From the IMG/VR virus record IMGVR_UViG_3300046519_000173, positions 1-25,014 of that record: DNA of 25,014 nt; one strand, written 5' to 3'. Within the stretch, counting starts at the first letter, position 1. Each line of letters opens with the position of its first letter. The stretch comes from a virus. The translations under genes were made by a program, and so were the position numbers. Positions 35 through 3,684 of this stretch are shown piece after piece. The notes below the pieces were generated by a model, which ran no database searches, was not told the origin of the DNA, and saw only the letters and a list, made by a program, of their open reading frames with translations.

Positions 35-124
35 GGAGAGATGCCAGAGTGGCCGAATGGGACGGATTCGAAATCCGTTGTACCTTCACCGGTACCTAGG
101 GTTCGAATCCCTATCTCTCCGCCA
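35..124 (+). tRNA. tRNA-Ser (anticodon CGA), probable prophage attachment site
   Basis: A complete class II tRNA. The acceptor arm GGAGAGA (35-41) pairs with TCTCTCC (114-120), followed by discriminator G121 and an encoded CCA (122-124). The anticodon stem ACGGA/TCCGT encloses the loop TTCGAAA with anticodon CGA at 69-71, reading UCG codons. The long variable arm (GTACCTTCACCGGTAC region) and the T-loop GGTTCGAATCC are typical of serine tRNAs. The 3' end points into the prophage and the integrase gene lies inside reading back towards it, the usual arrangement when a tyrosine integrase uses a tRNA 3' end as attB. The exact core cannot be set because attR is outside the window. Confidence 0.97.
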
Positions 125-140
125 TTATTGAATAAGATTA

Positions 141-176
141 AGCCCCTGTAATCGTTGAAGATTACAGGGGCTTTTT
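141..176 (+). terminator. Rho-independent terminator after tRNA-Ser
   Basis: A 13-bp perfect stem, AGCCCCTGTAATC (141-153) with GATTACAGGGGCT (160-172), has a 6-nt loop and runs into TTTTT. It ends the tRNA transcript. If the crossover lies in the tRNA 3' end, this terminator is on the phage side. Confidence 0.9.
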
Positions 177-328: not shown

Positions 329-355
329 TTGCGTGGCTGTCGACTACCCACGCAA
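329..355. promoter_or_regulatory. Inverted repeat upstream of the HipA-like/HIRAN operon
   Basis: TTGCGTGG (329-336) and CCACGCAA (348-355) form a perfect 8-bp dyad with an 11-nt spacer, ending three bases before the probable ribosome site AGGA (358-361) of the kinase gene. It could be an autoregulatory operator or a hairpin in the mRNA leader. HipA-type modules are commonly autoregulated, but neither protein here shows an obvious DNA-binding domain. Confidence 0.4.
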
Positions 356-372
356 AAGGAACCTGCGGATAC

Positions 373-1281
373 ATGTTTAAGGTTATCGAGGTCCAGGAAG
401 ATTGGGTTGTCGATGAAGAGTGGATGGGTACCAAAACCAAATTTTGGGTGTCCATTCCTCCAGACGAGGACATTTGGCTGTTCAAGCACTCCCGAGTTTC
501 TGGTCGGGTATTTGCTGGAGAGCACTGGTCTGAAAAGCTGGCGAGCGAGATCGCAAAAATTATTGGCGTCCCGTGTGCTGATGTCGAGTTAGCGTGCTTT
601 AACGGTCAGCCTGGCTGCTTGAGTCGGAAATTCAGTGAACTTGCCAATGGGGTTGAGTTGGTACACGGCAATGAATTGCTTGCGGGTGCGATTCAGGGGT
701 ATGACCAGGCCAAAAATTACGGGCTTAGCACCCACACGCTAAAAAATATCATGGGAACCGCCATTTCGCTGATGTCCAGCGATGAAGCAAAGGCCGAGGC
801 GGCTATTGCAATAGGGGGCATGATTACGCTCGATGCGTTGATCGTGAATGTAGATAGACATCATGAGAATTGGTGCGTGTTTCGATCACGGGAGCAAAAT
901 GGCGTAAAGCACTGTATTGGTCCATCCTTCGACCACGCTTCCTCGCTTGGACGAGAGCTGAACTCGGACAAGATTGATTCTTGGCTGCGTTCTGGTCTTG
1001 CTAACCGAGGCGAATGGTACGTAAATAAGGCTAGGGGAGCGATCTATTGGAATTCCTCTGGTTCAAAAGGGACTAATCCCCTAGAACTGCTCAGGTTGGC
1101 GTATGGCGAATGGCCGGAAATGATTGAGCCATGGCTTGAGCGGCTTTCGGGGATTGATATTGACGAGCTCTGTAGGTTGTTAGACGAGATTCCTGATGGC
1201 TACATTGAGCAGCCATCTCGGGAATTCACCGCAGACTTACTTAGGTATACCTACCGTGAGCTGACAGGAATCAGACGATGA
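373..1281 (+). CDS. HipA-like (HipT-type) serine/threonine kinase, compact form
   Basis: A 302-aa protein matching the HipA C-terminal kinase fold without the usual N-terminal subdomain (full HipA is about 440 aa). WLFK at 35-38 supplies the probable ATP-binding Lys38. DRHHENW at 161-167 is the catalytic loop (Asp161, Asn166). FDHASSLG at 186-193 gives the metal-binding Asp187. HipA/HipT kinases phosphorylate protein targets, classically glutamyl-tRNA synthetase, and halt translation; the target here is unknown. The start is supported by AGGA about 11 nt upstream. The stop overlaps the next gene by ATGA, so the two are probably co-translated. No HipB-type antitoxin gene is adjacent. The DNA is visibly more AT-rich than the phage genes, which fits acquired cargo. 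The fold call is firm; toxin or defence function is inferred. Confidence 0.85.
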   Translation: MFKVIEVQEDWVVDEEWMGTKTKFWVSIPPDEDIWLFKHSRVSGRVFAGEHWSEKLASEIAKIIGVPCADVELACFNGQPGCLSRKFSELANGVELVHGNELLAGAIQGYDQAKNYGLSTHTLKNIMGTAISLMSSDEAKAEAAIAIGGMITLDALIVNVDRHHENWCVFRSREQNGVKHCIGPSFDHASSLGRELNSDKIDSWLRSGLANRGEWYVNKARGAIYWNSSGSKGTNPLELLRLAYGEWPEMIEPWLERLSGIDIDELCRLLDEIPDGYIEQPSREFTADLLRYTYRELTGIRR

Positions 1282-2048
1282 ACACTTTATTTCTTGCATG
1301 GAGATCCGGGTATACGGTAGGCGCCGCTACGCCACCGAAATCCAGTTGGTTTCCGATTGGGCGTCTCGACCGAGCTGATGACGGTAATGAGCTTTATACC
1401 TTTCGCTATTTGAAAGGAGCGAAAATTGCGGAGTCGGTCGCGGGATTCAGTCCACTGGAGGCTTTTCCGGAGCTCAGCGAGGTGTATACGTCGCCGGAGC
1501 TATTTTCCGTATTTTCGAATCGGATCCCAAATCCACGGCGTTCGAATTTTTCGGAAATAGTTGAGCGTATGGATCTGGAGGACAAAGCTGATCCGTTTCG
1601 AATCCTGTCTATTTCAGGTGGGGCGAGGCAGACTGATAGCCTTGAGATCTTTCCGCTTCTGACTACGTCTCCCGAAGGTGATTTCGTTTGTCGGTTCTTT
1701 ATCCATGGCAGTAGATTCATGCATGAGTCCTCAAGCGAGGCCATGAATAACCTTGCCGGAGGTGAGAAACTGAGAGTTTGCTTTGAGGCTAACAACCCAG
1801 CTACCGGTTGGGCTATTCAATTGCAAACCATTGATAAGCCTCAAATTATTGGCTATGTCCCACGTTATTTGTTACCTGATTTACATTCAATTAGAAAGAG
1901 TGACGATCAGGAGCATTTAAGTGCGGTTGTGAAAAAGGTCAACGCCGCCCCGGCACCATTGAATCAGAGATTTCTGGTTGAGTTGAAAGGTCGCTTGCCA
2001 GCGGGGCAAGCAATGATGAGCTCTACTGAATTCGAAGTTCTCTCTTGA
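1278..2048 (+). CDS. HIRAN-domain protein paired with the HipA-like kinase
   Basis: A 256-aa soluble protein. The C-terminal half carries a HIRAN-like signature: FEANNPATGWAIQL (about 169-182) followed by IIGYVPRYL (190-198), resembling the NPxDxxAV...GYVPR pattern of HIRAN domains, which bind DNA ends or act beside nucleic-acid enzymes. The N-terminal half (WFPIGRLDR at 24-32, YTFRYLKGA at 40-48, later GGARQTDSLEIFP) resembles the HipA N-terminal subdomain, which in HipBST systems is a separate protein, HipS. It may therefore be a HipS-HIRAN fusion controlling the kinase. It starts inside the kinase stop (ATGA), with AGGAA 8 nt upstream, and is followed by a terminator. The HIRAN call is reasonably sure, the HipS-like part less so. 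Confidence 0.72.
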   Translation: MNTLFLAWRSGYTVGAATPPKSSWFPIGRLDRADDGNELYTFRYLKGAKIAESVAGFSPLEAFPELSEVYTSPELFSVFSNRIPNPRRSNFSEIVERMDLEDKADPFRILSISGGARQTDSLEIFPLLTTSPEGDFVCRFFIHGSRFMHESSSEAMNNLAGGEKLRVCFEANNPATGWAIQLQTIDKPQIIGYVPRYLLPDLHSIRKSDDQEHLSAVVKKVNAAPAPLNQRFLVELKGRLPAGQAMMSSTEFEVLS

Positions 2049-2050
2049 CG

Positions 2051-2080
2051 AAAAAGCCCGGCATACGACCGTCGGGCTTT
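2051..2080. terminator. Bidirectional terminator between HIRAN gene and integrase
   Basis: AAAGCCCG (2053-2060) pairs perfectly with CGGGCTTT (2073-2080) around a 12-nt loop. The A-run at 2051-2055 gives a U-tract for minus-strand transcripts (integrase); the plus-strand U-tract is shorter. It separates converging genes. Confidence 0.8.
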
Positions 2081-2087
2081 GTCACCT

Positions 2088-3302
2088 TCATTCCCTAAAC
2101 CCCAGCATTTTCGACACGATTCCCGCCATGCTCTTGGTGTCCTTCGGTATCCATCTCCCATAATGCTTTCTCACCATTGTTGTATCGGCATGCCCGAGCT
2201 GACGGGCCACCCATTCGACCGGTACGTAGCTCGATAGCATCTGGCTTGCAAACGTGTGACGGCATTGGTTGGCTCCGCGATGGCGGACTTCTGCCTTTTT
2301 CAGGTGGGCGGTAAACCAGTTGCTCAGGGTTTTGCCACTCCAGAGCAGGCCGCTAGTGGAACTGCGAAAAAGAAACCTGACTTTCATCTTCTTGGACGTG
2401 ATGTTGTCGCGCTGGATAACGGTGATCTCGACGGCAGGAGCCTCCTTGGCAGCGGCAACAATGTCCCGCATCAGGTTGAGGGCAGGGTCGATCAGCTCGA
2501 CGACGCGTACCCTGGAGCGTTCTTTGGGGACTTTGAATTCGCCGACGACCAAAGCTCGGCGGACATGTACCAGGCCGGCTTCAATATCGATGTCCTCAAC
2601 GGCGAGCCCGATGAGCTCGGACAGGGACAGCCCGGCCCAGCAGTTGAACTCAATCATCCGGGCGTCAGCTCGCCGATCGGGATCCGCGTTGCCGATCAAG
2701 TTGATCTCGGTGCGGCTGAAGGGGTCGGCATGCTCCAGGTCGACATCAGATCCGACGTTACTGATCCGGTCCAGCGGATTGGCTTTGAGGATGCCGTCGC
2801 CGAAGGCATCAGCCCAGACCCCACGGACGACGGTGAAAATGTCGTTCACTGTCTTCGGGGCGAGGCCTTGCTTGAGCAGCTGCGCTTGGAACAACTCGAT
2901 GTCGCTCTTACTGATGTCGACGATCCGGCGCTTGCCGAATTTCTTCTCGACGTGCACAGCTTTGCTGACGTAGTTAACAACAGTGCTCGAAGCTTTGAGC
3001 GCGCGCTGAACCTCCAGCCAGCGATCAATGCCTTCTTTCACTGTGCGCTTTAGCGAAGGGCCGCCAGTCCCCGTGAACATGGCAGCCCTGGGCGAGTTCG
3101 GAAAGTGGGCCGAATAGTCGAAGCGGCCCTCTTTTATTTCCGCGAGGATGGTGCGGCGCTTGTTATCGGCGTAGGCGATCGCGGCCTTGTTTACTTTCGA
3201 GACCCCTTCCAAGGGTTCCCGGCACCGTTGGCCGTTGAAGATGAACCATATGCGCAATTGCTTGCCGTTCATCTCAACCCCGGTCGGCATCTTGTCGGTC
3301 AT
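2088..3302 (-). CDS. int: Tyrosine site-specific integrase
   Basis: A 404-aa phage integrase. An N-terminal arm-binding region (about 1-65, with RIWFIFNGQRCREP) precedes a core-binding SAM-like domain (about 85-175) and the catalytic domain (about 195-390). Catalytic residues seen are Lys260 in the beta-hairpin (VPKERSRVRVV), Arg348 in CRHTFAS, His371 in LGH and nucleophile Tyr381 in HYGRWI. The first catalytic Arg, expected in a TGLRxSEL-like motif, is replaced: the sequence reads AGLSLSEL with Ser226. The usual His of HxxR is Asn345. It catalyses integration and, with excisionase, excision at the tRNA-Ser site. Its ATG overlaps the xis stop by 4 nt, so it is the last gene of the left early operon. 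Confidence 0.95.
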   Translation of the reverse strand: MTDKMPTGVEMNGKQLRIWFIFNGQRCREPLEGVSKVNKAAIAYADNKRRTILAEIKEGRFDYSAHFPNSPRAAMFTGTGGPSLKRTVKEGIDRWLEVQRALKASSTVVNYVSKAVHVEKKFGKRRIVDISKSDIELFQAQLLKQGLAPKTVNDIFTVVRGVWADAFGDGILKANPLDRISNVGSDVDLEHADPFSRTEINLIGNADPDRRADARMIEFNCWAGLSLSELIGLAVEDIDIEAGLVHVRRALVVGEFKVPKERSRVRVVELIDPALNLMRDIVAAAKEAPAVEITVIQRDNITSKKMKVRFLFRSSTSGLLWSGKTLSNWFTAHLKKAEVRHRGANQCRHTFASQMLSSYVPVEWVARQLGHADTTMVRKHYGRWIPKDTKSMAGIVSKMLGFRE

Positions 3303-3514
3303 GGTTTCCCTTCCATCCAGCGCTCAATGGCGGCACGGTTGTAAACGATCACGTTGGCTGGGTCCTTGCGCCAGTGTTTGCCTTCAAGCCAGAGGCCGCG
3401 GGTGCGGTACTTGCGGACGGCTTCGGTGCTCAGGCCGAACACTGGATACAGCAGGTCCTGGCGGAACCAGGCGCCGGGTGTGATGTGGAGGTCGAGTTTT
3501 TCTGCTGCGCTCAT
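3299..3514 (-). CDS. xis: Excisionase-like protein (Xis)
   Basis: 71 aa from the internal ATG at 3514, preferred over an upstream start because GGAG lies 8 nt before it and the preceding gene's stop overlaps it (ATGA). The sequence GAWFRQDLLYPVFGLSTEAV, then RKYRTRGLWLEGKHWRKDP and a closing AIERWMEG, follows the excisionase pattern of a winged-helix DNA binder (Gxxxx AIxRKxxxGxWxEGxxWRK). Such proteins bend attachment-site DNA and drive the integrase towards excision. It lies directly upstream of int and overlaps its start codon by 4 nt, so the two are made together. Confidence 0.85.
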   Translation of the reverse strand: MSAAEKLDLHITPGAWFRQDLLYPVFGLSTEAVRKYRTRGLWLEGKHWRKDPANVIVYNRAAIERWMEGKP

Positions 3515-3684
3515 TGTGGTTTCTCCCCTGCGCGCCAGGCGATACCCTCGGCCTGGCGCTGCTTGCTGCATTGTTCGTGGTTGCCGTGTGCCCGTGACTT
3601 GTTGCATTTATCGCAGATGGTTTGTAAATCGAGAGGTGGCATTTGGCCGCGGCGGATTCGGACTGTTCGGCGAAGGGCAGTCAT
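3511..3684 (-). CDS. Small zinc-finger-like phage protein
   Basis: 57 aa, joined to both neighbours by ATGA overlaps, which is the main reason to call it real. It has a basic N-terminus (TALRRTVRIRRG) and a Cys/His cluster: C24-x2-C27, H33, H36 and C39, in CDKCNKSRAHGNHEQC. This would suit a small zinc-binding DNA or protein adaptor. It is read between the coiled-coil protein and xis. I do not recognise the family; the zinc idea rests only on residue spacing. Confidence 0.7.
   Translation of the reverse strand: MTALRRTVRIRRGQMPPLDLQTICDKCNKSRAHGNHEQCSKQRQAEGIAWRAGEKPQ

Follow-up and report, generated by a model that had tools for sequence, protein, structure and literature searches.

The closest described counterpart of the locus studied here is hipIN, an organisation proposed by Gerdes, Baerentsen and Brodersen in 2021 together with an abortive infection triggered by DNA ends (PMC8262856). 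Its kinases of 279–321 aa lack the N-subdomain 1 of HipA, carry a Gly-rich loop near the N-terminus with a Thr beside it, have no HipB and are followed by a partner with a HipS-like and then a HIRAN domain, and all of these features are shared by the pair described below, whose kinase has 302 aa. HipL from the same paper has the same three domains fused in one chain, whereas our version is split into two genes. In HipBST, too, HipA is split and accompanied by an inhibitor domain of the HipS type; there HipS directly blocks the kinase HipT, and the Trp that it inserts by the Gly-rich loop of the kinase is essential (PMC10627512). However, HipBST has a HipB, which our pair does not, while our partner protein HipN adds a HIRAN domain and HipN proteins show Arg/Lys or a small polar residue in place of the wedge residue Trp65. 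HipA with DUF3037 (DS-6/HipAD, PDC-M66 in PADLOC) is also a two-gene module without HipB that combines a kinase toxin with a non-HipB antitoxin, but the partner is DUF3037/DUF1829 and not HipS-HIRAN. For this system defence has been demonstrated experimentally, loss of the kinase removing it and deletion of the partner being toxic (PMC13092281, PMC12548924). No experimental test of any pair of the hipIN type, or of PDC-M03, its phage defence candidate label in PADLOC, was found in the literature searched, which covered few subscription papers or preprints.

The window, i.e. the whole stretch of 25,014 bases that was analysed, is an IMG/VR virus record representing the left end of a prophage with a Pseudomonas host. 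A tRNA-Ser(CGA) and a hairpin precede the kinase and HipN genes, which are followed by a second hairpin, a convergent tyrosine integrase gene and an excisionase-like gene (Table 1). The stop codon of the kinase gene and the start codon of hipN share four nucleotides (ATGA), and the slot has a GC content of 0.49 compared to 0.594 in the remaining phage DNA. A preliminary description of this DNA had placed two translationally coupled genes between the attachment site and the integrase in AT-richer cargo DNA, which agrees with our analysis, and its coordinates and the positions of the catalytic residues were all exact. An inverted repeat immediately 5' of the kinase start was considered as an autoregulatory operator and rejected, as it is absent from the related loci L001 (Pseudomonas simiae) and L004, and comparison with relatives revealed no conserved operator upstream of the kinase.

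Table 1. Features at the left end of the window (positions in the window).
Feature	Position	Strand	Basis and remarks
tRNA-Ser (CGA)	35–124	+	ARAGORN; integration (att) site on the side of its 3' end; L001 and L004 also have this tRNA 5' of the pair
Perfect hairpin of 14 bp, terminator-like, 3' of the tRNA	140–173	+	Conserved in L001 and L004
Inverted repeat of 8 bp (TTGCGTGG/CCACGCAA), immediately 5' of the kinase start	329–355		Absent from relatives
hipI-type short HipA/CtkA-fold Ser/Thr kinase, 302 aa, presumed toxin (PDC-M03A)	373–1281	+	PADLOC, E = 2.5e-163
Gly-rich loop region of the kinase (G19-T20-K21-T22-K23), near the N-terminus as in kinases without N-subdomain 1	427–441	+	Alignment
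hipN-type protein, 256 aa, presumed antitoxin/sensor (PDC-M03B)	1278–2048	+	PADLOC; AlphaFold2
HipS-like (Couple_hipA) domain, HipN residues 26–115; invariant F79, R82, R88	1353–1622	+	Pfam; PDB profile
HIRAN domain, HipN residues 137–237; A175/T176 in place of the usual aromatic/Asp	1686–1988	+	Pfam; structure; profile
Hairpin of 8 bp (AAAGCCCG/CGGGCTTT), terminator-like, separating hipN from the convergent integrase gene	2053–2080		Read from the sequence
Tyrosine integrase bounding the cargo slot	2088–3302	-	
Excisionase-like gene (DUF1233)	3299–3607	-	

The pair belongs to the already proposed hipIN/PDC-M03 kind. PADLOC returned adjacent matches to PDC-M03A (2.5e-163) and PDC-M03B (6.7e-73), both nearly full length and with no difference seen from this label, and the hipIN motifs G19/K23, K38, D161-N166 and D187 are all present in the kinase; the assignment to hipIN, whose kinases were described as HipI subclades within clade XI (81 kinases) of the Hip tree, is based on organisation and motifs. 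These are also the HIRAN-linked HipT families that the preliminary description mentioned. The window clade differs from hipIN in the HIRAN pocket, where an Asp and an aromatic residue are missing. New here are the strict pairing and co-evolution of both genes, the asymmetry of broken kinases, the cargo hotspot, the location next to integrases in Vibrio and Clostridioides and the loss of the HIRAN pocket residues.

The preliminary description of a short HipA-type kinase with intact Lys38, Asp161, Asn166 and Asp187 was confirmed for each of these positions. Among 50 representative kinases, 48 have letters at the K38 position and all of these keep the Lys, and D161, N166 and D187 are kept in 50 of 50. 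As the viral loci had been searched for partly by the latter motifs, K38 provides the unbiased figure for conservation. The Pfam HipA_C match to the window kinase lies slightly under the cut-off (29.7 vs 30.5), whereas PDC-M03A covers nearly its full length. Because the Gly-rich loop begins at residue 19, the kinase has no HipA N-subdomain 1. A profile made from 18 relatives matched the solved structures of the Helicobacter pylori kinase CtkA (PDB 3akj, 6.9e-24) and of Legionella HipT (1.7e-6), and also Shewanella HipA. CtkA is the closest solved kinase both by profile and by fold, with a match that is limited to the kinase half of the pair, and it may share ancestry with this kinase family.

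HipN is a two-domain protein, with a HipS-like domain followed by HIRAN. For the HIRAN domain, Pfam gave 27.0 bits in the window protein (cut-off 24.7) and matched 46 of 46 HipN homologues. The AlphaFold2 model (pLDDT 89.3, pTM 0.86) was found by Foldseek to match the HIRAN folds of HLTF (probability 1.00) and Rad5 (0.94), and a profile match to HLTF reached 2.5e-6. A chance call is rejected by the structure match and the 46 homologues, and the HIRAN fold on which the preliminary description had made its reading depend is thus present.

The N-terminal domain had been overlooked there. Couple_hipA, the corresponding Pfam family, matches the window protein with an E-value of 0.0051, which is under the Pfam cut-off, and 34 of the 46 homologues, with 9.7e-9 as the best value. 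A profile of the domain found the HipS chains 7ab4/7ab3 as the best solved structures (E 0.08, a weak match) and also aligned residues 10–92 of HipA, corresponding to N-subdomain 1 (E about 1.2, also weak). Each of these matches is weak alone but all agree on family and position, so that the domain is probably HipS-like. This assignment comes from sequence profiles, since HIRAN folds but no HipS were present among the listed PDB matches of the HipN model. Concerning the antitoxin, the earlier reading was right in that Pfam found no helix-turn-helix (HipB) in either protein, the operon consisting of two genes between the terminator-like hairpin and the convergent integrase. Its implication that any antitoxin is lacking did not hold, because HipN carries the HipS-like domain and an antitoxin-like domain is therefore present although there is no HipB. 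The stretch of HipN that aligns with the HipS wedge contains the invariant F79, R82 and R88; no HipS-type Trp wedge was found in the alignment of the 46 sequences, and in an ungapped extension of the HipS-profile alignment its position is Arg or Lys in 37 of them. With the Trp absent and invariant Arg residues in this stretch, any block of the kinase by HipN would have to use another contact.

A survey of gene neighbourhoods, as suggested in the preliminary description, showed how strictly both genes are linked. In a scan of viral contigs with the kinase profile, hipN directly followed the kinase gene in the same orientation, usually with an overlap, or was fused to it in 80 of 80 loci, with one of these (L083) being a fusion, and in a scan with the HipN profile the kinase was present in 60 of 60 loci, both scans returning largely identical contigs. 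The distances of kinases and HipN proteins are correlated in a mirror-tree analysis (r = 0.955, 45 pairs), a value reached in none of 2000 permutations. Kinase and HipN are therefore an inseparable, co-evolving unit. The natural fusion in L083, a kinase-HipS-HIRAN protein of 513 residues, was modelled as one confident chain (pLDDT 84.7, pTM 0.78) from an alignment built from fragments of split homologues (A11), and the model matches the folds of CtkA (probability 1.00), HipA and HIRAN. Four loci have a broken kinase beside an intact HipN, caused by nonsense mutations (L087, L019), a frameshift (L100) or loss of the 5' part (L030), and no intact kinase without HipN was seen among the scanned loci. 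This asymmetry, which comprises four loci and could include some stops that are sequencing errors, fits the pattern expected for a toxin and its antitoxin. In another locus (L032) there are insertion sequences around and between the kinase and HipN genes, and the N-terminus of the kinase is apparently missing.

From the sequence, domains, fold, strict pairing, co-inheritance and cargo hotspot obtained here, the pair is most likely a type II toxin-antitoxin/abortive-infection module. More specifically, it is probably a two-gene toxin-antitoxin module of the hipIN type that is carried as prophage cargo and protects the unit of prophage and host by a growth arrest triggered through HIRAN. In the course of events that we infer for toxicity, neutralisation, ligand, target and defence, the short kinase would be the toxin and HipN would restrain it with the HipS-like domain docked near the Gly-rich loop. 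The HIRAN domain would act as the sensor, and its binding of a nucleic acid that signals infection or DNA damage would release this restraint, whereupon the freed kinase would phosphorylate an essential host factor, possibly one of translation. Growth would stop, a competing phage would fail and the prophage-host unit would be protected.

What the HIRAN domain might sense was addressed by mapping HLTF residues to HipN in a HMMER alignment. In HLTF, Y93 and Y72 border a pocket that holds one dinucleotide (PMC4666394). Positions 175–176 of HipN align with Y93 and the following Asp (D94), and at the positions of Y72, Y93 and this Asp the window protein has F147, A175 and T176, which is not the residue set of an HLTF-type 3'-end reader. 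Ala-Thr is found in 4 of 4 members of the window clade in the alignment, whereas 42 of 42 other HipN have the Asp at 176 and mostly an aromatic residue or His at 175. N173, A179, G192 and R196 are kept. The replacement leaves no ground to assume HLTF-like end reading in this clade and weakens DNA-end sensing. It does not exclude DNA binding by HipN, since the HIRAN domain of Rad5 still binds DNA, without preference for a 3'-OH, though most of the HLTF contacts are missing (PMC7804152). The sensing of DNA ends or forks, proposed in the preliminary description, may apply to the family, but it is least secure in the Pseudomonas clade, which lacks two pocket residues that other HipN keep. The same replacement would agree with the module being decayed or inert cargo, but this can hardly be the case as neither frame is interrupted, every catalytic residue is present and another four records of the clade (82–89% identity) are intact.

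Alternatively, HIRAN could be a sensor of short DNA, for example deoxydinucleotides from the degradation of DNA by phages or nucleases, instead of DNA ends at forks, with the ligand freeing the kinase; the Pseudomonas clade with A175/T176 would then have a shifted ligand specificity. This reading, which we consider distinctly unlikely, is suggested by the single dinucleotide in the HLTF pocket and by the report that in Gram-positives one third of the genes for deoxydinucleotide-specific nucleases adjoin HipA-HIRAN pairs (PMC11706625), as such nucleases could clear the ligand. In P2-like E. coli phages a gene of 183 aa annotated as 3'-5' exoribonuclease lies directly 5' of the HipL fusion (L031:5305-5856; L110–L113), which recalls this link and points in the same direction. 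Relatives of this gene near the loci were found only in the HipL phages and in L039, there about 2 kb away. As a separate observation, one viral contig encodes a stand-alone HIRAN-like ORF of 107 aa (L115:5902-6225), with no kinase detected in its 12-kb locus.

Returning to the toxin-antitoxin module, its close relatives are few, namely Pseudomonas simiae (L001) and three viral contigs with 82–86% kinase identity. In a sample of 400 Pseudomonas genomes a close copy occurred in G001, which is the same P. simiae genome and the centre of the sample, and distant copies in two others, while no relatives of the window at the DNA level were found in phage records or E. coli genomes. The order tRNA-Ser(CGA)-kinase-HipN-integrase is repeated in L001 and L004. 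Distant pairs also adjoin integrases in tailless Vibrio prophages (14-kb phages classed in Varidnaviria) and in the Clostridioides phage phiCDKH02, showing that the pair travels between unrelated phages, tailed and tailless. On a Rhodococcus plasmid, genes for a restriction subunit S and a DNA methyltransferase of a type I-like system enclose the pair (L029:4508-9134), and further pairs are located on Nostoc and Mycolicibacterium plasmids. The fused HipL occurs in L083 and in the P2-like E. coli phages L031 and L110–L113, in one of these phages between the replication endonuclease and portal genes, a locus at which P2-like phages are known to have a hotspot of defence genes (PMC9122126).

This distribution also bears on a possible role as prophage regulatory switch, in which the kinase would act on the induction or excision regulators of its own phage upon DNA damage. 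The location beside integrase and excisionase and the function of HIRAN as a DNA-damage domain in eukaryotes would fit, and there is a precedent in the Pf KKP kinase-phosphatase module, which controls co-resident prophages and is reported to show that one kinase module can combine regulation and defence (PMC11341870). Nevertheless, we regard such a switch as very improbable, as pairs are found in many unrelated positions with integrase, portal, terminase or methyltransferase genes as neighbours, on plasmids as well as in phages belonging to two realms, and the pair is missing from relatives that share the integrase and is therefore not a fixed part of the circuit of one phage.

For the slot itself, which is a cargo hotspot in a lineage of Pseudomonas phages, a scan with the window integrase was performed and 80 loci (L170–L249) with 70–99% identity were kept, cargo being defined as the DNA from the integrase to the tRNA or the contig end. 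Cargo was present in 63 of these and absent from 17, giving 36 different signatures with empty counted as one; seven empty slots are bounded by the tRNA at 121–144 bp, and the rest may look empty simply because the contig stops there. The median GC content of the cargo is 0.476 against 0.576 for the adjoining phage DNA. Among the cargo are parts of a type VIII retron (DUF626_VIII, 3.1e-206; RT_VIII, 2.4e-111), the SIR2-type candidate PDC-S65 (3.1e-208), an OLD/Gabija-like ATPase and an HNH effector-like protein. A hipIN pair occupies 3 of the 80 slots (L213, L226 and L231, which are on the contigs of L003, L002 and L004, respectively) and is thus a single type of cargo among many in a slot rich in defence genes. 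This supports a defence role purely by association. The retron, SIR2 and OLD/Gabija-like genes in the same slot of relatives, together with the restriction/methyltransferase context in Rhodococcus, count for a defence module.

The same data make it unlikely that the pair only serves addiction and stability, keeping the prophage by post-segregational killing with HIRAN merely autoregulating or tethering the complex to DNA and no role against phages. The toxin-antitoxin architecture and the copies on plasmids and next to phage integrases would agree with this, but the slot also holds known or candidate defence genes and not toxin-antitoxin pairs alone, and several relatives that share the integrase have an empty slot, so that the module is dispensable for prophage upkeep. 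Addiction and defence are not mutually exclusive. While hipIN/PDC-M03 is a widespread candidate defence module, the copy in the window is compact (1.7 kb), intact and prophage-borne, and it is of interest because it can be tested and because its clade has a sensor change of its own: empty and alternative states of the slot in closely related phages make the defence claim directly testable, and the altered HIRAN pocket offers an internal comparison for the signal that this domain perceives. Among the cargo proteins of the slot, several that are large or frequent (types L183, L237, L170, L193 and L185) have no PADLOC name and are candidates for new defence genes.
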